Shown here: piece after piece, positions 27,234-64,000 of the stretch
Layout: the number at the start of each line of letters is the position of its first letter
Numbering within the stretch: the stretch's first letter is position 1
Source: Dichotomocladium elegans
Lineage: Eukaryota; Mucoromycota; Mucoromycetes; Mucorales; Lichtheimiaceae
Direction: 5' to 3'
Length of the DNA stretch: 64,000 nt
Assembly (NCBI GenBank): GCA_025716815.1
Contig: JAIXMN010000029.1
Coordinates: 369,982-433,981 of the forward strand
Position numbers and translations under genes: made by a program
The notes under the pieces: model-generated
What the model was told of the DNA's origin: nothing
What the model saw: only the letters and a program-made list of their open reading frames with translations
The model's database searches: none

Positions 27234-29022
27234 CTACTCTTCTTCATCAATTAAAAAATCCCTAATTTTTTCTCGCAGACGTTCTTGGCTTTCACTCGAC
27301 ACGATTGACTGAACAGCATAAGGTGGGAGGAGTTGGATGGTATCGTTTTTGTAATCTTTCAGGTCCACTTGACAGCTGTAACATAAGGCCTGATTGATAT
27401 CCACGATCGATGGGTCACTCTTGTCTGAACCAGCGTTTGGCGGTGAGTCAATTAATTCTGCGGGCTCCTTTGCATGTGCAACAGTGATTTGTCTCCTCCA
27501 GCTCTCAATATCGGGCTCATATGGCCTGTCCACGAGTTTAGTTCGCTTGCTGCTCTATATGCAAAACAAAGAAACGGTGGATTGCTCTTACATATAACAT
27601 ATAGCGCATTTTCTGTTCATATCCATGCTTTGCTGAAGAGTCAATTTCGAGGCAGTTCGGGAGATAGTGCTCACTGTAGAGGGAAATCCACGATCCAGCG
27701 TTGCAATGAAGTCTGCAAAACATATCATTTGAGCACCACTCTAAAAACCATGTTCCATATATCTCTTTGAATTACGTTCGGTCAGCTTTTCAATGGATGC
27801 CTTGTTAGGTAGCCTGGTTCCGAAATCAGTTGGCGGTATAACGTAGCTATCCAAACCGGAAAACCGATTATAAAGACCGATCTCCTTCGCGAGCATATCC
27901 TTCATGGGCCGTATAATGGCAACACCCTGAAAGCTCACATCGTTCTCCGCGCCCACATCCAACGGGATGCTGTAACCTCTGCCTTTACTGGTCATTGAGA
28001 TCATTTTGATGGCTTGTCGTGTGGCTGTATCGGCGAGAAAGATATAGGAACAACTGAAGTAATACATATATGTTAGGTTCATGCCCACCCTCCAAAAGGG
28101 ACGATGCAAATACAAGCAGGACATCGCCACTCACTTCTCTCGCTGAGCGACTTTCACCAGCATTGCCTGCTTGATATGCCAGTATAAATCTTCTTTAGAA
28201 GAGTTCTTGGAAATCCCATCAAAGAGTTGCTTAAGCAAAGTCACTCTCTCCTCACGGGTAGCTGGTACTGCTTTCTTTGAGATCTTCGCAATATGTGCTA
28301 TTTTGGTTGTTGGATGGATATAATTGATACACGAAAGGCCCTTGATGGAATACTTACCATAATCGCCGAGATCATCGTTGATAGGATTGAGAGCATATGC
28401 GAGTCCATTCTCATCGCCATTCTGCGTAAACTCAGAAGAAAACACCTCCTCCATCCCATGAGCTACAAAGGCCATATCGGGAAACAGTTGCTTTGCCATC
28501 GCTTCTAAACGTGCTGTGCTCCCTTCCTGTACCAAATGTAAGGTTTAGGTTGATGGTTTTATTTTCTTTTTCTTTCCTCGACTTGCCTGATTATCAAACA
28601 GACATGACTCATCAATATGGCAGATTATGGCCGATTCCAAGAGCTTGACCTTCTTCTTTTCGTTGGGCGCAACATGCATGAAATCCTTGGTCATATCCAG
28701 CATCGCTCTAGACAGAGAGAGCGAGTTATCAGTATGTGAGAAGACGATCAATCAGCCTTCCGGTTTCCCTTACAAGGAACTTGGTCCGCCAGACAGTGCA
28801 AGTAACACTTTTCCTTTCACCCGGGCTATGGCTCGCGATTTATTGAGAACAGTGCGGTACTTGCCGACAGCCGCATAAAGAAAGCAATCACTGTAGATCG
28901 GCTCTGTATGAGGCAGAGATCGCAACCGCAATAGAATCATTAGCTTACTGGCAGTAGCATGCGTGGCGGATTAAAATGGTCGAGTCGGCCGTTTTGCATT
29001 TACAGCAGGGCTTCTTTGGCAT
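27234..29022 (-). CDS. NCS2: Cytoplasmic tRNA 2-thiolation protein 2
   Basis: Partner of Ncs6/Ctu1 in 2-thiolation of wobble uridine (mcm5s2U34) of tRNA-Lys, -Glu and -Gln. Seven exons on the minus strand: 29022-28949, 28890-28774, 28707-28587, 28526-28135, 28053-27776, 27712-27592 and 27552-27234, giving 473 aa. The N-terminus has Cys motifs (MPKKPCCKCK, RHACYCHDCF). The degenerate PP-loop reads KGKVLLALSGGPSSLAMLDM; catalytic partners have SGGxDS, so SGGPSS fits the non-catalytic subunit. Further family blocks are CSYIFLADTATRQAIKMIS, SKGRGYSIPLDVG, RPMKDMLAKEIGLYN, RGFPSTVSTISRTASKL and a C-terminal CYSCQVDL. The intron after exon 3 (28586-28527) begins GCAAGT; only GC-AG splicing preserves the frame. 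The last junction uses acceptor ATAGAG and is the least certain. Confidence 0.92.
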
Positions 29023-49420: not shown

Positions 49421-51600
49421 ATTATCCTTAAAAATACATTTTTCACATATCTTCCTGTGCCTATATATATATCACACGTATAGATTTTTATTATTATTAT
49501 TATTACATACAGCTATTTGATGCATCGTGTTCATAGATGAAATTCCATGCCTTTCATTATTCTAAATATTCTACAACTCATTGCGATAATTCTTGTGGGT
49601 GCGGGGGCTTCGACTCCGCTGTTGCAACAGTCGAGCGAAGCAAGATGTGTTGCTAGTAATCTTCTAAATGATTATATTAGATAAGCCTCTGTTTGTTGAT
49701 CGACGGTCGTATGTAGTCCATTCACAGATCAATGTCCCTTGCAATTTGGGAAGTTTGGTACCTACAGATGAAATGACTGAAATTCATGCAATGGCCAGCA
49801 TTGTCATTCCTGAAGTCAGCAATTATCTGTCTAACGTGCCATTGTCAGCCCCTCCGGGTGGTCGAATACTCTGAAATGTAGAGCGTGGGCTGGCAGAGGT
49901 GGTCAGTCATTGGAGGGGTGAAAAGGGCTAGGATAAAAACTGGGTCACCTGAATTTCGTAGCCCGCGGATTATGCAAAGACGCACCCAGCAGTGGCCCGT
50001 GTGGGTGGGGTGGGAAAGGGAGTAAATTCTACCACAACTCCCCCTTTGAAAAAAGGGGGTATAAAAAGGGGCCCTTTTCCCCAACTTTTCGTCTCTCTTT
50101 ATCCTTTGGGCCCGTTTGGGTACGTTCTCTCCCGCCGAGAGTCCCCTTCCCCACCCCTCTCTCTACCCCCTCCCCTTCCCTCTACCCCCTCCCCTTCCCC
50201 TATCTCCCTCTCGGCCTTTCCCATCGTACCTTGATGAGTCTGGAGGATCTCTCCGAGGACGCATGATTGGCGCCAGTCATGCAGAGGAGAGGGGATACAC
50301 AGCAGCCGGCCTTCACGTGGCTATCCCTGTTACGGGGCTCTCTTTTGAGGACCTCAACCGACGGGCTGCTCAGTTAATGAAAATGAAATCCCCAAAATAT
50401 TTAAACGAAAACAAAAGAAGTAAACGAAAATCTTTTTTAATTTAAAAATGAAAACGAAAAATACTCGAGTGTGTGTATGTGAGCGTTGTGAAGCGGCATG
50501 AATAAGATCAAGCTGATGGTGCAATGACGGGAGGCGTTGCCCTACTATGGGCCATCATGTGTAAATCCTTTCGGCCACCATAGTTCCCCTAAGTTGTGAA
50601 ATATAGAGTTGCTGCTCATCTGGAAATTGTCATGGGAATGTTAGAGTGCGCTTCTCGGTGATTATATCTAATATGACATGATGGTCCGATGTATAAAAGG
50701 AATCTGGCTGCCAGCAGGACTTTTGGCGTAAAAACCTGCTACCATGTCAAGCGTCTAATCCAGTATAAATCTTCATATTTTTTATAAAAGATGGAAGAAC
50801 CTGCTACCCGCCTTCTTTTACTGTTACTCTTTGATCGTCGTTATCGACTATTTGTGGCGGAATAACTTTGGCCAGCATAAGGACGAGTTGAGCGGCGATG
50901 CCCTTTATTGCAATTAGATATAAGAATATTTTTACTGGAGCTGAGAATGAACCGATGGGGATCTTGAAGTTTGCCGTAATGACTTAGGTAATTAGTGAAC
51001 GGAGCCGTAGAAATAAATGCAGTCGAACTAATCAATGCAACAGGAGTAATAAATGCAATCCAAAGAAAGGGGGTCTTGTGGGGGTCAGAATCGGACGCTC
51101 TCGAATAATCCTTTTTTGGTTACGCCAATGGAGCTTCCTGATTGGTTGAAGGACTTATTTGCGGCACAGTAGCCTATAGCATCGACTCAAGCGTAACAAT
51201 AGAAATAGATAATGACGGATAGATGCTGTTTACAGTATAGGATGACTTGAATTCCCGAGGGAAAGTAATACATTGGGATTGGTGATGTGCTGGAGATGTT
51301 GACAGAAAAGGATACTTTTGGGCAAACGACTGGGATTGGTCGGCGAGTTTTGTTACGATGTCCTTATCGTATGACTGATAGATCAGTTGCTAATGATAAT
51401 ACTTTTGATATTGCTGTTGTAAGTGGTTGTTTTTTGCTATGGATATTCATATATATATGCTCAATATAAATAGCTCTATGAATGATGTGGAAGATATTAT
51501 CAAGAGAACTTCTAGTAATTGCCAGTGTCAAAAGGAAAAGCTTCTAGGAAGAACCAGCTGAGTCTAAGTCAAAAAGGTCACTTGACCTATGTCGACTTTT
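49421..51600. other. Repeat-rich intergenic region with a promoter-like GC/TATA cluster
   Basis: A TATTAT-type run lies at about 49484-49503. At about 50038-50075 a purine/pyrimidine-symmetric segment contains GGGTATAAAAAGGGG, followed by a long CT-rich tract to about 50225, looking like a strong core promoter without a recognisable gene. A frame at 50228-50445 (G-R-M-I-G-A-S-H then TAAGLHVAIPV) is unidentified. About 50826-51150 resembles 56376-56700 in short blocks (see findings). Confidence 0.45.
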
Positions 51601-51738
51601 TATCAAACCTTGATAAAAGACGACATTTGGTAGATGATGTCCAGGGGTTCATCGCAAGAAAATTTTCAAAAAACAACATTCTAACGGCACCGTCTTCAAG
51701 ACAATAACATTTCCGATTCAAACGAAGAGCAAAACACG

Positions 51739-52614
51739 ATGACCAACTCCAAGGCGATTCTCGAGGCGATGCAACAAATGCAAGCATGGCAAAGAAACCA
51801 ATGCCCGGCGCGAGGAATCCAAGCGCCGTTCGACCCCCAGCATGAAGGCCAAACTAGTTCAGCCTGACCTCTTTCGCGGTGATCGCTCGTCTTCAGCCGT
51901 GGAAGCTTGGTTACATACCGTCGATAAGTACGTCGATCATGCCGAACTCAGCGACCATGAAAGCTTGGTCTACGCTTCGACGCTGACTACGTGACGATGC
52001 TGCAACATGGCGGCGACACCTGGAAATGTCATTCAGTCTAGATGCCGACACCAGCCAGACGTCCATGGCGTGGGAAGACTCTTGTGCGGCCATTCGTGGC
52101 GAGTTCAAGCCACGCATCTACGCCCAGGTAGCCCGCAGTGATTGCATTCCGGGTATTACGCTGGACCTGCCAGGAATGGATCAGGGGGCTGCAACCGATG
52201 CGTTTATTCACAGACTCGAGTTGGGTCGCTCGCCTCCCTGTCCTGATGAAGGAGCCATCCACTCTGCTTGCCCCGTATAATGATGCCGAGTCATACGAAG
52301 CGGTGAAAGAGTATGTCGCCGGAAACGATGATCCTACGGGGCGCCACTACTCGGATATCCACTGCCCAGCATTACGTCCTGCTCCGATCAACGGCCAACA
52401 GGCTGAGGGTCCCACGCCAATGGATTCAGATGCGATCAACCGCCGTTCTCAAGGCACAACCAGATCGCACCAGCAAAGTTGCCCTCACCGCTGTTACAAC
52501 TCTGATAGTCGTGGCCATTTTGCTTGTACTTGTCCGCCGCCGCGCTATTCTCGATCTTGTTCGTCTGATAAGTTTCTGCATGGCGATTTAAAAGCCAACG
52601 CGCGTCAGGAGTAG
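51739..52614 (+). pseudogene. gag: Ty3/gypsy gag, broken
   Basis: Capsid-like pieces in shifting frames: PDLFRGDRSSSAVEAWLHTV then DKYVDHAELSDHESLVYAST, TWKCHSV and related segments, and EFKPRIYAQVARSDCIPGIT. A zinc knuckle near 52480-52535 reads CYNSDSRGHFACTC; the second Cys of the expected C-x2-C is Ser. Stops at about 51990 and elsewhere prevent translation as one protein. Confidence 0.7.
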
Positions 52615-52799
52615 AGGAAGTCCTTCCGCGCACACATCCATCCCTCAACCTGGTCACCCAAAACTCAACGCCCTGCCCCAGATTGTCTGCTGGTCTGATT
52701 GTCCCTGCAGAGGAACCGCACCCACCGGAGAGACCATTGATCCATTTGTCTGATGATTCCTCGGTCGACCAAGACGAGGATGATCGAAAAGCACTTGCC

Positions 52800-53236
52800 G
52801 CTGACGTTAGACATATTGAATCATTATTGACCATAAAGAATACCGAGTTACCCCTGTACAACATGTCCTGCAATGGGAAACCGATTGAAGTATTATTGGA
52901 TAGTGGTGCTACCTCGTCATATGTTTCACCTCAGTTGGCTGTGGGTTGCCTGGTGCGTTATGTCGCGGACCAGCAGGTGGAACCGCCGGTGGCCATAAGT
53001 TCTCAATCAAGCGCTCGGTCATCCTATCACTAGATGCCGCTGTATTTACCCATAGAATTTCTGCGTTCGTCCTCGATACCAAATTCGACTTGATCCTGTG
53101 TCGCGATTGGATCAAGAAAATCAAACCTGTACCGGATTGGGATCAAGATACATGGACGTTCTCAGTAAATGGGATTCAGTACACTCTTCGTCCAAAGTAC
53201 GACCGCCCTGCTCTGGAACTGGCCTACCTGATCTAA
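52800..53236 (+). pseudogene. Ty3/gypsy aspartic protease region
   Basis: The plus frame 52683-53033 includes IEVLLDSGATSSYVSPQLAV with the DSGA active-site motif; after a shift, 52946-53236 continues with FVLDTKFDLILCRDWI and VNGIQYTLRPKYD. It precedes the left breakpoint of the inverted segment. Confidence 0.75.
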
Positions 53237-53249
53237 TACCGCCAAGCTG

Positions 53250-54275
53250 CAGGGGCTTGGCATTCTGGCGTCCAAATAATCGACCGCTTTTTCGCACCCA
53301 CGCCCTTCGTCAGATCGGTTAACGGTGCAGCTATTGTCAAGAAGCCATGAATAAACGCCGGTAATGCGATGCCAAACCTACAAATTGCCGTACTTGTCGG
53401 GCGTTGGTTGGCTGCGGCCAATCGTGAATTGCTTTTACCTTGGTTTTGGACGGTAGAACTCCTGTCGCAGAGACCTGGAACCCAACGAATTCCAGCTCAG
53501 TCTTGAAGAATTCGCATTTCTTCAGGTTGGTCACTAGCTTAGCATCCCGTAAACAATCAAGAACCTGGCGCGCGTGTTGGTAATGCTCCTCTTCAGACTT
53601 GCTAAAGATCGGAATGTTGTCGAGATAAACCAATGCAAAAACATCCAAGCACTCGCCCAAGACGGAATTCATTAGCCGTTGAAACGTGAGAGGGACATTC
53701 GTGAACCCAAACGGAAGCACCTGGAGCTCGTATGATCCGTAGCGTGTGTTGAACACAGTTTTGAGAATATCTTCCTCTCGAATCCGTACCTGATGATAGC
53801 CGCTGTTCAAATCAATACTTGAGAAATAGTTGGCACCCCCAATTCTTTCCAAGCATTCGTCGATTCGAGGAAGCAGATGCGAGTTGCATTTAGTCACCTG
53901 GTTGATTGCACGGTAATACACGCAGAGGCGCATTGAACCGCCCTTTTTGAGTACGAACAACACCGGAGCGCCCCATGGGGACGCGGTAGGGCGGATCAAC
54001 CGTAGATCTAAGAGCTCTTTGAGCTGCTCGCGTAATTCTTCCAGCTCGAGTGGGCACATCTTGTATGGTGCTCGATTGGTGGGTGTTGCAGCATCCATGT
54101 CGATTATATGGCTCACCTCACGCACAGGTAGTAGTCTCGGTAGTTTATCCTGGAAAACTTCTGGGGTATTCCTTGCACAGTGCGTAGAGTCTGTTTTGCT
54201 GGGGCTTCTTCTCCTCTCGGTGCTTGGTACACACATAGCACAAGAACAGCTCATCTGCTTGACCCCGTATGACCA
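53250..54275 (-). pseudogene. Ty3/gypsy reverse transcriptase on the opposite strand to the rest of the element
   Basis: Reading from about 54275 down: GQADELFLCYVCTKHREEKK, then 54254-53337 with EELREQLKELLDLRLIRPTA, SPWGAPVLFVLKKGGSMRLC, YFSSIDLNSGYHQVRI, LPFGFTNVPLTFQRLMN and KKCEFFKTELEFVGFQV, and after a shift IAAPLTDLTKGVGAKKRSII to about 53250. The catalytic YxDD reads YLDN, so the enzyme would be dead. The flanking joins recombine protease to RT C-terminus and RT N-terminus to RNase H, exactly as expected for an inversion. Confidence 0.85.
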
Positions 54276-54282
54276 TACCTTT

Positions 54283-54716
54283 TGATCTTATCAAGTCCCG
54301 AATGTCCCAGGTCCCGATACTGCTACCGCCGAGTCCCGACCTATCGTATGTCATCGAGACGGATACCTCTAACTTTGGTATAGGCGCGGTACTGTTGCAG
54401 GAGGGAGAGGGTGGCGAGCTAAAGCCGCTCGCCTTTGAATCCAAGAACCTGTTCTCGACCGAACACAATTATCCAGCCCAAGAGAGGCAGCTACTAGGTA
54501 TCCTACATGGACTGTGCACATGGCGTTGTTTGTTGAAAGTCGACCTTATGTTGTACGTACTGATCACCACCCTTTGCTGTACTTCCGGAGCCGTACAAAA
54601 CCACCGCCACCGCGCCTGATCCGTTGGATAGCTAAGCTAGAACTGTACGACCCCGGGGTTTCAGTACAAGAGTGGAAAGGACAACCATGTACCTGACCTA
54701 TTGTCTCGGCGATATA
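54283..54716 (+). pseudogene. Ty3/gypsy RNase H region
   Basis: Plus strand: FDLIKSRMSQVPILLPPSPD, YVIETDTSNFGIGAVLLQEG, LAFESKNLFSTEHNYPAQER (catalytic Glu region), then after a shift VVRTDHHPLLYF with the second catalytic Asp. One frame shift around 54535. Confidence 0.8.
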
Positions 54717-54839
54717 GCCCACACTGCGCCCCGCACGTGAAATCCCTAGAACCTAATTACCTCTACTCCATAAAGTCAATCGAAGAATCCAACTGGGCAA
54801 ATCCTATAACTTTGCCGAGGCGAGCAGCCGACAATATTC

Positions 54840-55989
54840 AAGGACTTCTTGTTGAAGCATCGGGACAAAGTTACAGTTAAAGACAACCGGGTTTATCGCA
54901 AAGTCAAAATCGGATCCGAGGTACAAGGAATCCGCTTCGCTCTGTTCGCCCGCCGCGCTGATCTCGTACACCACTTTCATCCAGTTTGGGCATGCTGTGA
55001 TGGAAACATTGTACGATATTATCAAGTAACGTTGGTGGTGCCCAAACATGAAGGAAAGCATCCAGGAATGGCTCCATGACTGCCCTCAGTACCAATTGGC
55101 AGCTAACCCCGATCGAAGGCACACACCACGCTCCCATGCGACCTCTGGATGTCCCACTACCTTTCTCATATTGGCATCTTGATTTTATTGGCGAACTACC
55201 AACCACCATGCGCCACAGCCGACGAATCTTGGTCGCCGTTAGGCTACACCACCAATTGGACCATCGCGCGAGCCGTCCCTGATGCCACCGGCCAGGCCAT
55301 CGCCGATTTCATATTCGAGCAGATCGCTGTGCAGTTCGGTTGCCCTAACGAAATATTGACGGATGGTAGTGCCAACTTTATGTCCAAAACACGGAACCTG
55401 TATCTGGACCTCACCGGATTCATCCCAAGTTATGGATCACCCCCGTTGACACCGGCTTTCCACCCACGTACGAATGGCAAGGTTGAGCGCACCAACGGCA
55501 TTCTCAAGTCTATGCTTCGGGAATATACCAACGGAGCCATCTATCGCTGGGATGACTTTTTGTAACCGTCTATCTTTGCGTGTTGTGTGCGCAAGCATCG
55601 CACAACAGAGCCGAGTCCCTTCTACGTGGTGTATGGAATAGAACCGGATCCCAAGACCAGTAGATGCGTGCAGGCCAGCATCGTTGCGCCTGCATGAAGA
55701 TCGCGCGTGTGCAGCAGAACACCTTCGTGCCAAACGCCCAACGGGACAAAGCTATTTGGGATGCTACGCTAAAACCACAGGTTTCACTATTAGTGATCAT
55801 GTTTTACTGCGCAACGAGCAAATGTTAAGCCTGGAATACAACTGGAAAGGTCCCTACTCGGTAATCATTCGTAACTTGGACTCGGATACTTGCAAATTGA
55901 AGGATATGAATAGCAGCGAGTACAGTTCCTGGGTCCATACCGACCGTCTACGCCCCGTCCATCTCAAGTTCGCGCCCACTTCCCCTTGA
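54840..55989 (+). pseudogene. Ty3/gypsy integrase, frame-shifted
   Basis: Pieces: an HHCC-like remnant around 54960-55010; the core with YTTNWTIARAVPDATGQAIA, EILTDGSANFMSK (second Asp) and HPRTNGKVERTNGILKSMLR (catalytic Glu at KVERTN); and the C-terminal SH3-like part FTISDHVLLRNEQMLSLEYN, WKGPYSVIIRNLDSDTCKLK, ending at the stop 55989. Shifts lie near 55080 and 55565. Confidence 0.8.
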
Positions 55990-56089
55990 TACGATCCTGT
56001 CTCTTCCCGCGCCACCAACTGCTCAGATTTTTAAAATCATTCCCTGCTGTCGTTGCTCGAGGACGACCAACATTCTCGGAAGGGGGTAA

Positions 56090-56351
56090 TGTCGTAGTAC
56101 AGTTCGGTCGATTATTTGGATCACCGGCTACATGGCCATTACCGCGAAGCATAGCACTTTTTGACAAAGTCCGAATGACAATGTCACTAAACATGAATCG
56201 TGACAGCATTGTACTCATTTCTTAACAAATCAATACAGTATAAATAATGGGACATTCATCGTAATAAAACATCATCAGATATTTTCTCGACTATTACCTA
56301 TGTGGTTATCTCTTCGTGGTCATTCTCTCAGTGGATTTCATCTCTTCAACG
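56090..56351 (+). repeat. Probable 3' LTR of the Ty3/gypsy element
   Basis: Begins TGTCGTAGTAC immediately after a polypurine tract, includes a TATAAATAATGG promoter-like box at about 56240, and ends before TGGTATCAAAG (56352-56362), which resembles an initiator-Met-tRNA primer-binding site. Because a primer site follows it, the LTR is also positioned as the 5' LTR of a second, mostly missing element. Confidence 0.5.
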
Positions 56352-56764
56352 TGGTATCAAAGTCTGATAAAAGACGACATATTGTCGATTATTTTTGGCG
56401 GATAAACCTTAACCAGCGATAGTCATGGGCAGTGATAATGAATGTAGTAGTATTTCGTTGTTTCTCCTCATTTTATTTACGACAAACACCCGGGTATTTA
56501 TATTAGCTAAAGTGGAAGGGCGGGTCAGGTATCTTGATACTCATTGCCATGGCTTAACGAATTAATAATTGCAACCCAGACAATAAATGCAGTCGACAGG
56601 GACGTCGATGGAGTCAGGATAAATGTTCTCAAATAATCCCCTTTTTGGGTCCCTACAGCAAGTCGATCTGATTGGCTCCAGAATTCATATGCGACAATAT
56701 GATTGGTCGAGCAATCTGTGACACGCCAACAAAAAGATTATTCAATTTGCTTCAAGCATGTTAA
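56352..56764. other. LTR-element leader remnant and spacer before the tRNA
   Basis: Starts with a primer-binding-like TGGTATCAAAG and the 15-bp leader GATAAAAGACGACAT (56366-56380), identical to 51612-51626. Remaining sequence to the tRNA is AT-rich and non-coding. Confidence 0.5.
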
Positions 56765-56836
56765 TTCCCCCACCGGGAATTGAACCCGGGCCACCGGTGT
56801 GAGAGACCGGGATCCTAGCCACTAGACCATAGAGGA
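56765..56836 (-). tRNA. tRNA-Glu (anticodon CTC)
   Basis: On the minus strand the sequence starts TCCTCTATGGTCTAGTGGC and folds as a cloverleaf. The acceptor stem TCCTCTA pairs with TGGGGGA (two G-U pairs). The anticodon loop CTCTCAC sits on a CCGGT/ACCGG stem, giving anticodon CTC. The T arm contains GGTTCAATTCC. The A box (TGGTCTAGTGG) and B box (GGTTCAATTCC) are intact. It is about 72 nt with no intron. Its upstream flank is the 5' end of a LINE. Confidence 0.9.
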
Positions 56837-56849
56837 AGAGGAAGAGACC

Positions 56850-58496
56850 TTGTCGAGCATCGCGCGCGGCGAATTCAAGCTCTTTTTATATTTTCCAAAT
56901 TTGTCACGTGATTACCCCTATCTTATCAGATCGACAATTTCACCGTTAATTGCGAACACGTTGGAAAGCTCTAAAACAAATCAAGAACCACCTGCATCAC
57001 CCTCCGACGTCCCTTCTACATCGTTATCGAAGCGGAAAGGATCGGCAGACCTTCCTAAAGCATCAAAAATCCCGCAGATAAAGAAAATCAGGGGCACCCA
57101 AACACCTGGCCCCATGCCTAATCCGCCCACAAGCAGTGTGCGTAGCACTCGCCCCTCGCCGGCTGCTCCCGCAACCACCCGCCCCTCTCGCCAGGCGTCA
57201 CGTTCGCCTACCCGACGCGTAGCAACACCTGCTCGTGCAAATGCGCGAGCCCGAACACCAGAGGTTGTTGCAATCGGCAGCACCTCAGACACTGTTGACT
57301 CTGTCACTGGCCTGGAGATCTGCAGTCTCACCGACCTCGACCCGCAGCCCTTGCCTCTGAACCTCCCTGCATGGGCTAGCGCCATGGAACGCCGCTTGAA
57401 CGAACAGGAGCGCGCAATTGCTGAGCAAAAGGAGTTTTCAGCCGAACTTGCACGTGTGCTTGCACATAATAAGCAGCTCGAGGCGGAACTAAACGCCGCC
57501 AAAGTACTGATTGCCGATCTGCAAGGCCAACTTGCCGAAACCACCCGTGTGTCTCCCCCCAGCATGGGTAATGCTTCTCTTGTTGAAGAGGCAATGGAAG
57601 TCGACCCCCGTGGCACGGCCGCATCACGTTGGGCAATGGCAACCACGCCACCACCAGCCAATGCACAACCAAAAGCGCATACCACACCAACCGCAGCTAC
57701 AACTGGCGCTACACCCACAACCAAGCCAGCTAGCAATAGCCCTTCTTCTTGGGCAACCGTGGCTAAGAAAAATGCAGGCCGCCCCACCCGCCGCGCGGCG
57801 CCCAAACCTACCTCCACCCCCACCCGCGCCATGGTCGCCTGGGCTGGCCGTGGTTTCCAGCCACACGCAGAGGGCCAGAAGACCGGATATACTTTTGTGT
57901 ACCTGGCCAGTACATTCCGGATGGCCCATAGCGATGTGCGCAACCGCTTGCGCATTCTTGGTGTCAATCAGGCACGAGTGATTGACATTCATTTCCCCAC
58001 CAAAGGGATAGTCGGGCTGCTCGTCCACTGCTCTTATGAGGAGGAACTCCTAGAATGCCTGAAAAAGGGCGGCATCTCCCCCGTCCCCTTCGATCCCATC
58101 TCGGCCTCGAACCTCATGGATCCCCAGTGGGATACGCTCTCCTCCGCCGACAAGGCATCCAAGGCCGCCGACCTTCACCAACGTCGGATTCTGCGCACCT
58201 GTTTGGCCACCCACAAGGCGCATGTGGGCCGTGCCATTGCTTACTTTTTCGCCGACCCCGGCTATGTGGGACCGCATGCTCTGCCCGCCGCATTGCTTGC
58301 GGAATTCAACAAGGAACGGCCAGCACCAGTGCGCCGCCACAAGGTGCTTTCACAATCCGCTGCAGCTGCCGGCTTTCTCAGTACCAGCCCGCCCGCCAGG
58401 GAGGACGGCGACGACGACATGGGCGAGGCGATTGCGCAGGACGCCACTACCGACACCCCGAACAACAGCCCAGTTTCCGCTTCGACCAATAATTAA
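56850..58496 (+). CDS. LINE ORF1 protein (coiled coil and RNA-binding-like domain)
   Basis: Nucleic-acid-binding chaperone of the LINE RNP. The open frame runs 548 codons from a TTG at 56850; the first ATG is at 57114 (MPNPPTSS), which would give 460 aa. The frame is open from the tRNA boundary, so a non-AUG or internal start is possible. After a basic Pro/Ser/Arg-rich region comes a coiled coil (ERRLNEQERAIAEQKEFSAE, LARVLAHNKQLEAELNAAKV). The C-terminal part, YTFVYLASTFRMAHSDVRNR then RVIDIHFPTKGIVGLLVHCS, looks RRM-like. No CCHC zinc knuckles were seen. The stop TAA overlaps the ORF2 start in TAATG (58494-58498), typical of termination-reinitiation. Confidence 0.85.
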   Translation: MSSIARGEFKLFLYFPNLSRDYPYLIRSTISPLIANTLESSKTNQEPPASPSDVPSTSLSKRKGSADLPKASKIPQIKKIRGTQTPGPMPNPPTSSVRSTRPSPAAPATTRPSRQASRSPTRRVATPARANARARTPEVVAIGSTSDTVDSVTGLEICSLTDLDPQPLPLNLPAWASAMERRLNEQERAIAEQKEFSAELARVLAHNKQLEAELNAAKVLIADLQGQLAETTRVSPPSMGNASLVEEAMEVDPRGTAASRWAMATTPPPANAQPKAHTTPTAATTGATPTTKPASNSPSSWATVAKKNAGRPTRRAAPKPTSTPTRAMVAWAGRGFQPHAEGQKTGYTFVYLASTFRMAHSDVRNRLRILGVNQARVIDIHFPTKGIVGLLVHCSYEEELLECLKKGGISPVPFDPISASNLMDPQWDTLSSADKASKAADLHQRRILRTCLATHKAHVGRAIAYFFADPGYVGPHALPAALLAEFNKERPAPVRRHKVLSQSAAAAGFLSTSPPAREDGDDDMGEAIAQDATTDTPNNSPVSASTNN

Positions 58497-61400
58497 TGTG
58501 TGATCAGCTCACGATTGCACAACTCAATGCATCAGGCATCGATCGCTCGCCTGATGAGTTGATTAATTATTGTTTAGAAGAAAATGTAGATATATTATTA
58601 TTAACGGAAACTTACCTCACTCAAGGCACACTCACAACATCATGGGCGCAATTTCACAACTATGCGCGGATTCCAGGCAACGCGAGAAGGGGCTTTGGCG
58701 GGCTATCGCTCCTGATCCGTCCTGGCTTCCCTTTCCATGTTCATCTACATCAACACCCCAATGAGTACACCATATCATGCTCTATTGGGCCACTCACGCT
58801 CCACGGACTCTACCTCCCACCATCACTCGACCTCGCCACATACACGTCCATCATCAACCGCCTCCCGATCGACCGCAACACCATCGTATTCGGAGATCTC
58901 AACACTCGCCTCGGCAACCAGCTAGGCGATCACGACACCAACCCCCGCGCCCCGGCATTTCACGACTGGCTTATCAGTCATGGCCTCCACGTCTGGAACG
59001 AAACATTGGCGCATGGTAAGGCCACCTACTACCAGCCCAATGTTGGCCACAGCATCATCGATCTCTTTGTGTCGCAGACCGATGCCGTCGTCGCACCTTC
59101 GCTCACTGTGCGCGACGATCTGTCGCTGAGCTCCGACCACCATCTGTGCGTGTTCCGTTTCTTCACAGCAATGGCAGTGCCCAGACTGCCTGCTGCAAAC
59201 GCGCCTCGCCAACACTGGAAACTCCAGCGCTTGAAAGAACCCGATGTCCTGGAACTCTACGTGTCCAAATTCACCCAACACGTAGAGCCCCTCCAAGAAG
59301 ATATCCGCACGTGTGCCGAGCAAGAGTTTGTCGACGTCGATGGGATTGAGAGGATCGGCGAGCGGCTGACTAGCTGCATCTACGCGGCGCTGGATGAGAG
59401 TGTCACACGCGGCACAATCCGTCCCAAGCATTGGAAGTGGTTCTGGTCCGACGACCTGCAGAAGCTTGCTGATGTACGACAGCACAAATACCAGCAGTGG
59501 CTGCGTGCACCAAACACCATCGACCGGGCTCGTCATTGGGAGGCCTATACTGCGGCTCGAACCTCCCTCCGGGTAGCCATCCGCCGTGCTCGTTCGCAAC
59601 AGTGGAAACTGTTTTGCCAGCGGATGCAGCACCACAGTTCCAGCGAGGCAAACAGTGTCGTAAAGCGCATGCGGCGAAACCGCACACCGTCGACTGTCTT
59701 CTCCCACCCTGCTGGTCCTGATCATGCCGCCGAGACCATGATCACCCATCTCGCTGGCGTCTTTGGCGGTGATGATCCTCGTCCTCCCCCTCATCGTCAT
59801 GATCACCTCGACGATGTTGGTTCATCCCCCTTCCCTGTGAATCGACTTGTCCGTGTCATTCGCAAGGAAGTTCCCGCACGCAAGGCGCCTGGTTCCGACC
59901 ATATTACCGGCGCCATGCTTAAGCCCATTGCACGCCCCCTTGCTCTGGTGCTTTCCCCCTTCCTCGCACTCTGCTGGCGATGGTCGCACGTACCACGGCA
60001 ATGGCGTACAGCCCAGGTCGTCCCGATCCACAAGAAAGGCGACCCTACCCTTGCCGCAAATTACCGACCAATCAGTCTCACGAGCACATTCCGCAAGCTC
60101 ATTGAGCGATGCCTCTTGCCTGACATCCTGCAAGAAATGCCTCCCCTCGATGTCGCGCAAGGTGGATTCCGCTCTCGTCGCGGTGCTCTTGACCAGGCCT
60201 TCAACCTGCAAGTGTTGATGCGCCAATATCGCCGCGAATTCCGCAGCTCGCCGGTTGTCGCATTCCTCGACATCAAGTCGGCATATGACTCTGTTGATCG
60301 GCAGGTCATATGGGATGCACTATCCGATCACTTGCGCCCACCCCTCCTCGAGCTGGTTCGACACTTGTTCAACGACGTGCATGTGTCGGTCATCCTCCAG
60401 AACTTTGAATCACGTTCGATCCGTCCCAGGCGAGGCGTCCTACAAGGCTCGATCCTCAGCCCCATCCTATACGCCGTGTTCATCGACAGCCTGCCAAAGA
60501 CACTGCGTCTCGGCATCTCTCGTCCTTTGATGATCCGTGCTGTACCGTCTGCTGGTCAGACCGAGGCCTCCGTTCAGCTGTTGCCTCGTTTGCAGCTACG
60601 CGATCCTGAACGCTCCGACACCGAGATTGTTCCGATCAACTCGCTGCTTTACGCAGATGATGTCGCCATCTTTGGCTCATCCGACGAGGTCCGTTTGCTC
60701 TTGGCCATGTGCGAACTACACTCCTCCCGCCTTGGCTACCGCTGGCATCCTAACAAGTGTACGATTGTTAATGGCGATCCTCAAGTCCATTATCGCCTGT
60801 ACGGGGAGAACATCGAGCAAGTGCCTTGGTTTAAATACCTTGGCATCCCTTTCAACGCCAACGGTATTGACACCATCCGCATGGTGCAGACCAACGCCAC
60901 CAAGACCACTGCCGCCATGTCGCTCCTACATGCGCTGGGCGCTCATCAGTACGGCTTCGGCTTGGGTGTTTCCCTCCGGTTGTACCGTACCTTCATTCGG
61001 CCAATTCTTGAGTACGGGCTCGCCATCATCACGTTGACTGCCGCGAATCGTCACACGCTCGAAACGGCCCAGAAGCGCTGCATTCGCCTGGCGCTGAATG
61101 TCACTGACCCGCTCGCGACCACGCCCACGATAATGCCGCTGCACCTTGCTGCATTGCCGTCCATGGCATTCCGCGCTCGCATTCTGGTGTTCAAGTTCCT
61201 TTGCCGCGCATATTCTGTGCCTCCGTCGACATTGTTGGCCTGTCTCGTTACTTGTTTTCTGCGGCGTCACCACCCCGTGGAATTGTGGAATAACCTGACG
61301 AACAATGCGCTCTGGCGCGACCACAAAATTTTGACCCGCCAAGCCCCCCTTCCGCATGACCCGATGACGCATATCCTGGACCATCATTTTGACCTGGAGC

Positions 61401-61870
61401 TTACGTCACGTCGCACAAAGTTTTCCTCTGTGGCCCGTGCACTGGAGGAATGGCGCTTTGATCCGATCCTGCATCTGCCAGCCAGCAACCTCGCCCGGCA
61501 CCGTCTCGTCAAGTGGCGGATGCACTGGTTACCACCGCACCCCCTCAAGACCTGCCGTTGTGGGGTGACCGCCAGCCGACGGCACTTTATCACTTGCGAT
61601 CTCGTTGGCCCGATGATCCAGCTCCTGCAAGAGAGCTTTCCTGGCCCCGTTGGCGATGATCAGCATCCTCTTGATGCGATCATGAATGCGCTACCCAAGC
61701 GCGCTCATGGATTGAAGCAAGGCCATTGGCGACGTACGTGGCCTATGCTTCTTTCCGCGCTTCGGGATGTAGACACTTGCTGTCATCCTGACGCAGAATT
61801 TGACAGTGAACCTCCTCAAGGACTTGCCCTTGAAGAGTTCTTCACCCGCACTACTTCCGACGCCGATTAA
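58496..61870 (+). CDS. LINE ORF2 polyprotein (AP-type endonuclease and reverse transcriptase)
   Basis: 1124 aa, uninterrupted. The N-terminal EEP endonuclease shows TIAQLNASGI, LLLTETYLTQ, LTLHGLYLPP, NTIVFGDLNTRLGNQ and LSLSSDHHLCVF, the expected Asn, Glu, Asp and His active-site set. Reverse transcriptase follows: WRTAQVVPIHKKGDPTLAAN, YRPISLTSTFRKLIERCLL, QGGFRSRRGALDQAF, VVAFLDIKSAYDSVDRQ, RRGVLQGSILSPILYAVFID and LLYADDVAIFGS with intact YADD. The thumb and C-terminal region carry PWFKYLGIPFNANGI. A Cys/His motif near the end, CRCGVTASRRHFITC (C-x-C-x7-H-x3-C), resembles the C-terminal zinc motif of L1-type elements. No RNase H domain was seen. It appears capable of function. Confidence 0.93.
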   Translation: MCDQLTIAQLNASGIDRSPDELINYCLEENVDILLLTETYLTQGTLTTSWAQFHNYARIPGNARRGFGGLSLLIRPGFPFHVHLHQHPNEYTISCSIGPLTLHGLYLPPSLDLATYTSIINRLPIDRNTIVFGDLNTRLGNQLGDHDTNPRAPAFHDWLISHGLHVWNETLAHGKATYYQPNVGHSIIDLFVSQTDAVVAPSLTVRDDLSLSSDHHLCVFRFFTAMAVPRLPAANAPRQHWKLQRLKEPDVLELYVSKFTQHVEPLQEDIRTCAEQEFVDVDGIERIGERLTSCIYAALDESVTRGTIRPKHWKWFWSDDLQKLADVRQHKYQQWLRAPNTIDRARHWEAYTAARTSLRVAIRRARSQQWKLFCQRMQHHSSSEANSVVKRMRRNRTPSTVFSHPAGPDHAAETMITHLAGVFGGDDPRPPPHRHDHLDDVGSSPFPVNRLVRVIRKEVPARKAPGSDHITGAMLKPIARPLALVLSPFLALCWRWSHVPRQWRTAQVVPIHKKGDPTLAANYRPISLTSTFRKLIERCLLPDILQEMPPLDVAQGGFRSRRGALDQAFNLQVLMRQYRREFRSSPVVAFLDIKSAYDSVDRQVIWDALSDHLRPPLLELVRHLFNDVHVSVILQNFESRSIRPRRGVLQGSILSPILYAVFIDSLPKTLRLGISRPLMIRAVPSAGQTEASVQLLPRLQLRDPERSDTEIVPINSLLYADDVAIFGSSDEVRLLLAMCELHSSRLGYRWHPNKCTIVNGDPQVHYRLYGENIEQVPWFKYLGIPFNANGIDTIRMVQTNATKTTAAMSLLHALGAHQYGFGLGVSLRLYRTFIRPILEYGLAIITLTAANRHTLETAQKRCIRLALNVTDPLATTPTIMPLHLAALPSMAFRARILVFKFLCRAYSVPPSTLLACLVTCFLRRHHPVELWNNLTNNALWRDHKILTRQAPLPHDPMTHILDHHFDLELTSRRTKFSSVARALEEWRFDPILHLPASNLARHRLVKWRMHWLPPHPLKTCRCGVTASRRHFITCDLVGPMIQLLQESFPGPVGDDQHPLDAIMNALPKRAHGLKQGHWRRTWPMLLSALRDVDTCCHPDAEFDSEPPQGLALEEFFTRTTSDAD

Positions 61871-62111
61871 CGGCTGTCCTCTTTTCGCTTCTTTGTCCGT
61901 GTAGCTTAGCTCCCATTCTTACTTGTCCCCTCTTCCTCATCTCTTTCTCTCTTCCCTGCACGCAGGTTTTTTCGTCCCTGATGGGTTTTTCCTGTGATCA
62001 CTCCCTCACTTATATCTATTTAATACTCCCCCTCCACCCCCTTATCATTACTGGCCGGTAGATTGCCTAATGGATGCTACCTTTACGAGCCATAGAATAA
62101 ATAATCTTTGA

Positions 62112-62127
62112 ACTAGACCATAGAGGA
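62112..62127 (+). repeat. 16-bp tRNA-Glu-derived target-site duplication between LINE copies
   Basis: ACTAGACCATAGAGGA, identical to 56821-56836, which is the 5' end (antisense) of the tRNA-Glu gene. It separates LINE copy 1 from copy 2. Confidence 0.9.
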
Positions 62128-64000
62128 GAGACCTTGTCGAGCATCGCGCGCGGCGAATTCAAGCTCTTTTTATATTTTCCAAATTTGTCACGTGATTACC
62201 CCTATCTTATCGGATCGACAATTTCACCGTTAATTGCGAACACGTTGGAAAGCTCTAAAACAAATCAAGAACCACCTGCATCACCCCCCGACGCCCCCCT
62301 ACATCGTTATCGAAGCGGAAAGGATCGGCAGACCTTCCTAAAGCATCAAAAATCCCGCAGATAAAGAAAATCAGGGGCACCCAAACACCTGGCCCCATGC
62401 CTAATCCGCCCACAAGCAGTGTGCGTAGCACTCGCCCCTCGCCGGCTGCTCCCGCAACCACCCGCCCTCTCGCCAGGCGTCACGTTCGCCTACCCGACGC
62501 GTAGCAACACCTGCTCGTGCAAATGCGCGAGCCCGAACACCAGAGGTTGTTGCAATCGGCAGCACCTCAGACACTGTTGACTCTGTCACTGGCCTGGAGA
62601 TCTGCAGTCTCACCGACCTCGACCCGCAGCCCTTGCCTCTGAACCTCCCTGCATGGGCTAGCGCCATGGAACGCCGCTTGAACGAACAGGAGCGCGCAAT
62701 TGCTGAGCAAAAGGAGTTTTCAGCCGAACTTGCACGTGTGCTTGCACATAATAAGCAGCTCGAGGCGGAACTAAACGCCGCCAAAGTACTGATTGCCGAT
62801 CTGCAAGGCCAACTTGCCGAAACCACCCGTGTGTCTCCCCCAGCATGGGTAATGCTTCTTTGTTGAAGAGGCAATGGAAGTCGACCCCCGTGGCACGGCC
62901 GCATCACGTTGGGCAATGGCAACCACGCCACCACCAGCCAATGCACAACCAAAAGCGCATACCACACCAACCGCAGCTACAACTGGCGCTACACCCACAA
63001 CCAAGCCAGCTAGCAATAGCCCTTCTTCTTGGGCAACCGTGGCTAAGAAAAATGCAGGCCGCCCCACCCGCCGCGCGGCGCCCAAACCTACCTCCACCCC
63101 CACCCGCGCCATGGTCGCCTGGGCTGGCCGTGGTTTCCAGCCACACGCAGAGGGCCAGAAGACCGGATATACTTTTGTTACCTGGCCAGTACATTCCGGA
63201 TGGCCCATAGCGATGTGCGCAACCGCTTGCGCATTCTTGGTGTCAATCAGGCACGAGTGATTGACATTCATTTCCCCACCAAAGGGATAGTCGGGCTGCT
63301 CGTCCACTGCTCTTATGAGGAGGAACTCCTAGAATGCCTGAAAAAGGGCGGCATTTTCCCGTCCCTTCGATCCCATCTCGGCATCGAACCTATGGATCCC
63401 CATGGGATACGCTCTCCTCCGCGACAAGCATCCAAGGCGCCGACCTTCACCAACGTCGGATTCTGCGCACCTGTTGGCCACCCACAAGGCGCATGTGGGC
63501 CGTGCCATTGCTCACTTTTTCGCGACCCCAGCTATGTGGGACCGCATGCTCTGCCCGCCACATTGCTTGCGGAATTAACAAGAACGCCACCACCATGCGC
63601 CGCCACAAGCTTTCACAATCCGCTGCAGCTGCCGGCTTTCTCGGTACCAGCCCGCCCGCCAGGGAGGACGCGACGACGTCATGGGAGGCGATTGCGCAGG
63701 ACGCCACAACCGACACCGAACAACAGCCCAGTTTCCGCTTCGACAATAATTAATGTGTGATCAGCTCACGATTGCACAACTCAATGCATCAGGCATCGAT
63801 CGCTCGCCTGATGAGTTGATTAATTATTGTTTAGAAGAAAATGTAGATATATTATTATTAACGGAAACTTACCTCACTCAAGGCACACTCACAACATCAT
63901 GGGCGCAATTTCACAACTATGCGCGGATTCCAGGCAACGCGAGAAGGGGCTTTGGCGGGCTATCGCTCCTGATCCGTCCTGGCTTCCCTTTCCATGTTCA
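62128..64000 (+). mobile_element. LINE copy 2, head-to-tail, cut off by window end, ORF1 frame-shifted
   Basis: Nearly identical to copy 1 from GAGACCTTGTCG onward. Net length change relative to copy 1 is about -5 nt over the first 1.2 kb and about -22 nt over 63351-63753; the last 247 bp (ORF2 start) match copy 1 with no indel. The ORF1 frame is therefore broken repeatedly, while the TAATG ORF1/ORF2 junction (63751-63755) and ORF2 start are intact. Most losses are single bases from runs or doublets, so consensus error in a repeat is as likely as real decay. Confidence 0.88.

Follow-up and report, generated by a model that had tools for sequence, protein, structure and literature searches.

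The genome of the fungus Dichotomocladium elegans (Mucorales) very probably contains a group of site-specific long interspersed nuclear elements (LINEs) with an apurinic/apyrimidinic endonuclease (APE)-type protein, which insert at the starts of tRNA genes and duplicate approximately nucleotides (nt) 1–14 of the tRNA. The locus described here lies in a stretch of 64,000 nt (hereafter, the window; contig JAIXMN010000029.1 of assembly GCA_025716815.1, positions 369,982 to 433,981 of the forward strand). In the window, a complete tRNA-Glu(CTC) gene is adjoined by a LINE, after which the tRNA start is repeated and a second LINE copy begins. As read from the sequence, the group is characterized by its site and orientation, the duplication, an intact tRNA, arrays, 5'-truncated copies, and a protein with endonuclease (EEP) and reverse transcriptase (RT) domains. 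The features of the locus are as follows (ORF, open reading frame).

56765–56836, minus strand: complete tRNA-Glu(CTC) gene, the target (Rfam RF00005, 57.5 bits)
56823–56836, minus strand: tRNA nt 1–14, first copy of the target-site duplication (sequence reading)
56837–56843: seven extra bases between the tRNA and the element
56844–62111, plus strand: LINE copy 1, approximately 5.27 kb, both ORFs open, direction opposite to tRNA-Glu
56844–56876, plus strand: conserved 33-nt element 5' end (GAGACCTTGTCGAGC...)
56887–56891, plus strand: TATA-like stretch, kept between families
57114–58496, plus strand: ORF1, 460 amino acids from the first ATG, frame open from 56826
58496–61870, plus strand: ORF2, 1124 amino acids, APE-type endonuclease (EEP) and RT
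62057–62081, plus strand: putative hairpin in the 3' untranslated region, counterparts in the tails of other families (modest support)
62114–62127, minus strand: tRNA-Glu nt 1–14, second copy of the duplication
62128–64000, plus strand: LINE copy 2, head-to-tail, ORF1 broken by indels, ends with the contig

ARAGORN placed the same tRNA-Glu(CTC) at 56764–56837 on the minus strand. The first-pass annotation of this DNA described an exact recurrence of 16 bases of the tRNA 5' end (56821–56836) at 62112–62127, and this was confirmed, with a 14-mer core at 56823 and 62114. We retain 14 of these bases as the duplication; the first two (AC, 62112–62113) may be either tRNA nt 16–15 or encoded by the element. 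A second LINE copy directly after the repeat was also borne out: copy 2 is 97.8% identical to copy 1 over query bases 1–1906, with 28 gap columns. The LINE does adjoin the tRNA; its start, previously set at 56837, is moved to 56844, which is the usual 5' end and leaves the seven extra bases outside the element. A comparison of 12 tRNA 14-mers with both strands of the window yielded one exact match beyond 56823 and 62114, at 28459. Since these 14-mers are otherwise rare in the window and the same junction recurs genome-wide, we do not regard the repeat as a product of chance. The match at 28459 (plus strand) corresponds to tRNA-Phe nt 1–14, has no adjoining LINE start, and was taken as chance.

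Junctions at tRNA genes across the assembly

The assembly searched comprises 39.4 Mb in 122 contigs; C-numbers denote contigs and L-numbers the loci read. The 28-nt core of the element 5' end, with up to three mismatches, served as the 5' signature. It occurred at 52 places, and its reversed control at none. Twenty-six of the places adjoin a complete tRNA gene predicted by ARAGORN (eight isotypes, with tRNA-Glu accounting for seven of the 26), 22 follow a LINE tail and a tRNA 14-mer, and four are in neither context. The elements join tRNA nt 1 with their 5' side, and this holds as well for 5'-truncated copies, such as those on C61 and C58, which adjoin intact tRNAs. The other signature junctions at complete tRNA genes have at most one extra base.

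The 3' ends were examined in the same manner. The last 242 bp of the element had 13 matches in the assembly, 12 of which include the 3' end; the 13th (C113, 32 bases), lacking it, was left out. All 12 run into tRNA nt 1–14, namely, those of Glu-CTC (seven), Glu-TTC (three), and Asp (two). Among the 37 tails read, exact tRNA nt 1–14 follow 30, while two have one mismatch, three have three, one has four, and one has no such sequence. Three imperfect stubs fit the tRNA start CCGAGCTTAGCTCAGTTGG (four places), two exactly and one with a single mismatch; this start is probably that of tRNA-Tyr, a guess from its first bases. Among 17 elements with both a complete tRNA at the 5' end and a tail, 16 carry an exact 14-mer of the same tRNA, C95 (three mismatches) being scored as non-matching. 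In these 17, the 5' end and tail were joined by spacing where the interior was unread. The expectation that most copies abut tRNA 5' ends with duplications was thus met by 48 of the 52 5' ends and by 35 of the 37 3' ends (up to three mismatches from a tRNA 14-mer), and most flanks elsewhere in the genome are tRNA-linked, with the exception of four 5' ends and one tail.

One of these four 5' ends, C55:19483, has a tRNA-like sequence at a distance of approximately 400 bp, and the 14-mer of that sequence is found after the tail 5.2 kb further on. The copies at L053 9837 (C21:9836) and L061 1778 (C116:15776) begin a few bases downstream of the usual 5' end, with a common upstream sequence, GTACCGAACGTGTCAT, and no tRNA; C116:15776, whose context is as at C21:9836, was counted as "other". 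These copies possibly represent another target or a variant 5' end. At L102 (C28:146723–146819), a LINE tail is followed by no recognized tRNA 14-mer. Beyond the stub at L059 1–384 (C56:138000–138383), a short LINE 5' end runs into a segment of that element in reverse orientation, an inversion-type rearrangement.

More than one LINE family is involved. The window family also occurs at tRNA-Asp (C76; 92.7% identical over 2297 bp). A second family is found at tRNA-Asn and tRNA-Met; its RT and that of the window family share 50.6% identity over 698 aligned residues, and its copies at different tRNAs are 98.9% identical. Further LINE-like families are at tRNA-Ser, -Ala, -Lys, and -Glu. Two of these were termed V (40 matches, with eight tandem pairs 5.16–5.23 kb apart) and U (14 matches). 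Five V and U matches fall at tRNAs counted above, including C68:1792569 at just 76% identity. Five V places were read: one at tRNA-Ser, one at tRNA-Ala, one after tail-like sequence and an exact tRNA-Ser 14-mer, and two with no tRNA. The position, spacing, and common start of V and U suggest that they are LINEs. In family V (L136, L140, L142, and L044), the first 10 or so bases vary by locus, and the sequence beyond is 87–100% identical over the matched stretch. The earlier proposal of a target-specific LINE at a tRNA boundary is supported; its restriction to tRNA-Glu does not, since at least 10 isotypes are used (eight with the signature, plus Ser and Ala).

Probable cut site, proposed insertion cycle, and rival explanations

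For 25 tails of families other than Glu/Asp, the bases of family and target at tRNA position 15 differ 10 times, and the junction has the family base every time; nt 11–12 match the target. In the Glu/Asp family, position 13 tracks the target (Glu-CTC versus Glu-TTC). The former tails allow a nick between 12/13 and 14/15, because nt 13–14 are the same in elements and targets, and the latter allow 13/14 to 16/17. A nick common to both groups would therefore be at 13/14 or 14/15, i.e., at A14. We infer A14/R15 as the simplest common choice, with others being possible. Among the 15 tRNA starts compared, T8, G10, A14, and G18 are invariant and positions 9 and 15 are purines, which corresponds to the A box. 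The predicted RNA ends, ..ACU in the Glu/Asp family and ..AYUG in the others, could pair with A14 or C13-A14; the targets of the Glu/Asp family have T13 or C13, and those of the other signature families C13.

We propose the following cycle. The ORF2 protein would nick the sense strand of the tRNA gene at A14 of the A box, and the 3' end of the LINE RNA (..ACU or ..AYUG) would pair with the tRNA bases just before the nick, at which point reverse transcription would begin. The opposite strand would be cut at tRNA nt 1, resulting in the duplication of approximately nt 1–14. The complete tRNA would be kept on one side, with the LINE 5' end as its new upstream sequence, and a stub would remain past the LINE 3' end. 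Since the tRNA gene stays intact, insertion may be repeated; a renewed hit would produce head-to-tail arrays with one stub between copies. The order of the nicks, the annealing of the RNA, the activity of the elements, and the reading of the site as the A box or as a factor bound to it are what we infer. If this is correct, an APE-type LINE system would recognize a common feature of tRNA genes to one nucleotide, across many isotypes, and leave the gene unbroken. Fungi would then provide a natural example of safe-site insertion at high precision, in which the RNA ends and targets of the families can be compared directly, and the long-standing question of the origin of LINE specificity, in the nuclease or in host RNA polymerase III (Pol III) factors, becomes testable.

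Placement by host factors is a substantial possibility, although we consider it to fall short of an even chance. As has been put forward for TRE5-A, the LINE proteins would attach to TFIIIB/TFIIIC or Pol III at tRNA genes, and little sequence preference would reside in the endonuclease itself. The targets have little in common beyond the A box and the fold (15 tRNA starts), and TRE5-A is described as needing the B box, with its ORF1 protein interacting with TBP in vitro (PMC5391098). However, the joins found here are at a single nucleotide (nt 1, with the nick placed at A14) rather than within a span such as approximately 47 bp upstream, and the cut would be inside the gene. A mixture, in which the site is placed by a factor and read by sequence, fits equally well. 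The notion of a LINE specific for tRNA-Glu alone, suggested by the window copy and by the share of tRNA-Glu among the complete tRNA genes, is virtually untenable: the same group is at eight isotypes, V is at Ser and Ala, and the window family itself is at tRNA-Asp. It is also highly improbable that the tRNA and LINE move jointly, with the tRNA being part of the element rather than its target. The sequence beyond the tRNA 3' end is shared over 1.4 kb between C74 and C95 (99.2% identical) and between C58 and C61 (99.8%), and C42 shares 76 bp with C74/C95; we therefore regard these loci as segmental duplicates or alleles. In contrast, elements 98.9% identical are at different tRNAs, 5'-truncated copies also adjoin intact tRNAs, and among three of the four tRNA-Asn loci, the sequences beyond the tRNA 3' end do not match one another over the 1.4 kb compared. 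The matched duplications contradict joint movement, with the stub copying the adjoining tRNA in 16 of 17 elements.

Insertion at tRNA starts has points against it as well. Some loci are the near-duplicates mentioned above (C74/C95 and C58/C61), four of the 52 5' ends and one of the 37 tails lie outside tRNA contexts, for most of those 17 pairs that fall outside the Glu family, the link between 5' end and tail rests on spacing, and the first junction of the window itself has seven extra bases. Moreover, the stub type changes within arrays on C58 (Glu-CTC to Glu-TTC), C21 (Glu to Asp), C13 (Asn to Met), and C95 (Ile to Tyr-like). Simple repeated insertion does not predict these changes, and recombination between arrays or misassembly is needed to explain them. 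This, together with the many contigs that end inside arrays, favors the view that arrays arose mainly by unequal crossing-over or assembly joins rather than by repeated insertion. We consider this unlikely as the main source of the arrays: insertions without a recognized LINE start after the stub (C79 and C41) show the same matched duplication, and C61, C58, and C55 each have a tRNA at which a truncated and a full copy, or copies of different families, follow one another. Contigs C45, C95, C74, C69, C79, C81, C35, C78, C21, and C116 begin or end inside LINE copies, and arrays therefore look like a main cause of breaks in this assembly. Arrays of almost identical 5-kb units at tRNA loci dispersed in the genome would act as hot spots of rearrangement and, in assemblies of such fungi, as a cause of contig breaks.

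Occupied tRNA genes and the ends of the elements

The occupancy census covered 59 tRNA genes identified by Rfam, from 63 scored of 1319 candidates. At least 20 of the 59 bear a LINE: 13 with the signature, four with V or U, L114 (divergent 5' end), and L117 and L131 (V-like). L129 would raise this number to 21, its divergent LINE start having been judged by eye and from two short matches. All four tRNA-Asn genes found have a LINE element, as do 10 of the 11 tRNA-Glu genes found, the one on C1 being without. When near-duplicate Glu pairs are counted once, the latter becomes eight of nine.

We tentatively suggest, as a possible but rather doubtful extension, that the LINE 5' end acts as a replacement Pol III leader with a CAA start motif, such that the tRNA stays working and can be hit again, a commensal arrangement throughout a radiation of LINE families with different tRNA targets. 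Families differ little in the 33-nt 5' end, which has CAA at −9 when read from the tRNA. CAA is present within −16 to −3 in 10 of 15 native flanks versus a control rate of 0.20. The 15 flanks consist of 10 of 20 in one set, L045, and four of five in another; flanks derived or suspected to be derived from LINEs were dropped (L114, L117, L120, L121, L125, L126, L128, L129, L130, L131, and L136), a choice that could bias the result. The element TATA was rejected as part of such a leader: at junctions without extra bases, it is 45–47 nt from tRNA nt 1 (−45/−47), versus −25 to −33 in nine of the 15 native flanks. Since the spacing differs, the fit to a leader is limited to the CAA motif. If the suggestion is true, the supply of tRNA-Asn and tRNA-Glu in the host would depend on retrotransposon start sequences, because all four Asn genes and 10 of the 11 Glu genes have LINE DNA upstream. 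This raises the possibility that tRNA genes of the cell run from start regions supplied by a parasite.

A self-cleaving ribozyme similar to that of hepatitis delta virus was considered for the 5' end and rejected, as Rfam gave no match up to E 5 in 56700–62300. No fold common to the 5' ends of three families was found; one forms a long stem (z −1.76), and the other two gave z of approximately +0.3. The conservation therefore looks like a constraint on sequence. At the other end, the alignment of tails lends modest support to a 3' hairpin conserved between families. Across five tails, three pairs changed on both sides and 80% of cells were paired; single-sequence z-scores were weak (−0.3 to −1.4), two of the five tails pair the outer stem with a shift of one column relative to the alignment, which leaves it unscored there, and in control (b) a slide of −3 gave a covariation of 0.300 versus 0.286 for the structure itself.

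Proteins, known systems, and neighboring sequences

The EEP endonuclease reported by the first-pass annotation was recovered above the Pfam cut-off in the open ORF2 (PF14529/PF03372), together with the RT (PF00078), whereas ORF1 had no Pfam domain above its cut-off. No RNase H family was among the Pfam hits of ORF2 with E ≤ 0.1, and no other nuclease family was among the hits beside the N-terminal APE-type domain. The ORF1 stop and ORF2 ATG overlap as TAATG in the window family and as ATGA in the second family (C68). The predicted ORF2 model (mean pLDDT 88.5) matches L1 ORF2p overall, and its N terminus matches the endonucleases of TRAS1, L1, and R1, with the similarity to the TRAS1/R1Bm fold not being separable from that to L1. 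Based on its domains and predicted fold, ORF2 is assigned as an APE-type LINE protein with an EEP domain and a LINE RT; 5'-truncated copies and target-site duplications, also characteristic of APE-type LINEs, were found.

Sequence comparisons relate ORF2 to LINEs of Mucorales. The nearest protein is 55% identical, and named relatives are from Lichtheimia, Circinella, Rhizopus, Mucor, and Umbelopsis, including L. ramosa (48% over 97% of the query), Circinella minor (52% over 79%), Rhizopus delemar (38% over 92%), and Mucor (34–39% over 74–96%). These relatives point to a Mucorales-like fungus as the host. A scan found no relatives in viral contigs. In a tree of 24 homologs, the window family groups with P0001 (100/99), and the second family is in a clade with two Lichtheimia proteins (100/99). 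Therefore, if the tree is right, the split between the window and second families is older than that between the second family and Lichtheimia. Grem-LINE1 is described as a Mucorales LINE located around centromeres (PMC7763443).

Several known systems resemble the present group in part. These elements share with R1 and TRAS the status of site-specific APE LINEs; R1 makes a duplication of approximately 14 bp and forms tandem arrays, and the targets of R1/TRAS are 28S rDNA and telomere repeats, whereas those here are tRNA genes. The NeSL clade carries a restriction-like endonuclease, in contrast to the APE-type nuclease here. The fungal retrotransposons Ty3 (yeast), Tj1, and Rhizopus Ty3/gypsy are likewise found beside tRNA genes, but are long terminal repeat (LTR) elements that use an integrase. 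To our knowledge, NLTR-A has the insertion position nearest to that found here. Dictyostelium TRE elements had been named as the precedent for LINEs at tRNA genes; they remain a precedent, but not the only one, given NLTR-A (PMC5006619) and the planarian and "TV" LINEs (PMC4640811). TRE5 is reported approximately 50 bp upstream and TRE3 approximately 100 bp downstream of tRNA genes (PMC5006619, PMC5391098). They share with the present elements an APE endonuclease and RT in ORF2, two ORFs, many tRNA isotypes, and tandems; they differ in position, as the elements here join at tRNA nt 1, with a priming nick that would lie inside the A box. NLTR-A of D. purpureum is a non-LTR element reported 2–6 bp upstream of tRNA genes (PMC5006619) and described as carrying an RNase H domain. 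It is similarly close upstream of tRNA genes and differs in its RNase H, not detected by Pfam in ORF2 here; the accessible part of its description makes no mention of a duplication of tRNA nt 1–14 (PMC5006619). The NeSL relatives LIN15_SM (tRNA-Arg), LIN25_SM (tRNA-Glu), and NeSL-1_TV (tRNA-Pro) are listed as tRNA-specific LINEs (PMC4640811); each is reported at a single tRNA, whereas one group here uses many. In S. japonicus, 13 of 17 Tj1 inserts are given as within 12 bp upstream of tRNA genes (PMC4600332), and Ty3/gypsy elements are stated to often co-localize with tRNA genes in R. oryzae (PMC2699053). Dada DNA transposons of fish are reported to include families inside tRNA genes of many isotypes (PMC8869645); they share this target range and differ in being DNA transposons of animals. 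Titles and abstract openings of the literature found, with subscription papers mostly outside coverage, told of no fungal LINE at tRNA genes. We consider the present group to be a new variant among tRNA-targeting LINEs, being fungal and APE-type, with a putative nick inside the tRNA and many isotypes.

Other sequences also recur near tRNA genes. The regions upstream of tRNA-Thr L120 (C24) and tRNA-Gly L121 (C2) are 95% identical from approximately 12 nt before the tRNA, and, judged by this identity, are a further repeat at tRNA 5' ends. The 3' flanks of tRNAs of different isotypes (L009, L013, L018, L022, L033, L038, and L044) have common stretches of 0.5–1 kb at 65–76% identity, approximately 0.3–1.4 kb out, perhaps another mobile element settling downstream of tRNA genes. 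In the window, no direct repeat of at least 60 bp was found in 51000–56765. Approximately 2.5 kb from the 3' side of tRNA-Glu, there is an RT ORF (53337–54254, minus strand; PF00078, E 3.9e-33), which we take from its look to be Ty3/gypsy-like. A POM152-like nucleoporin gene also fits fungal DNA.

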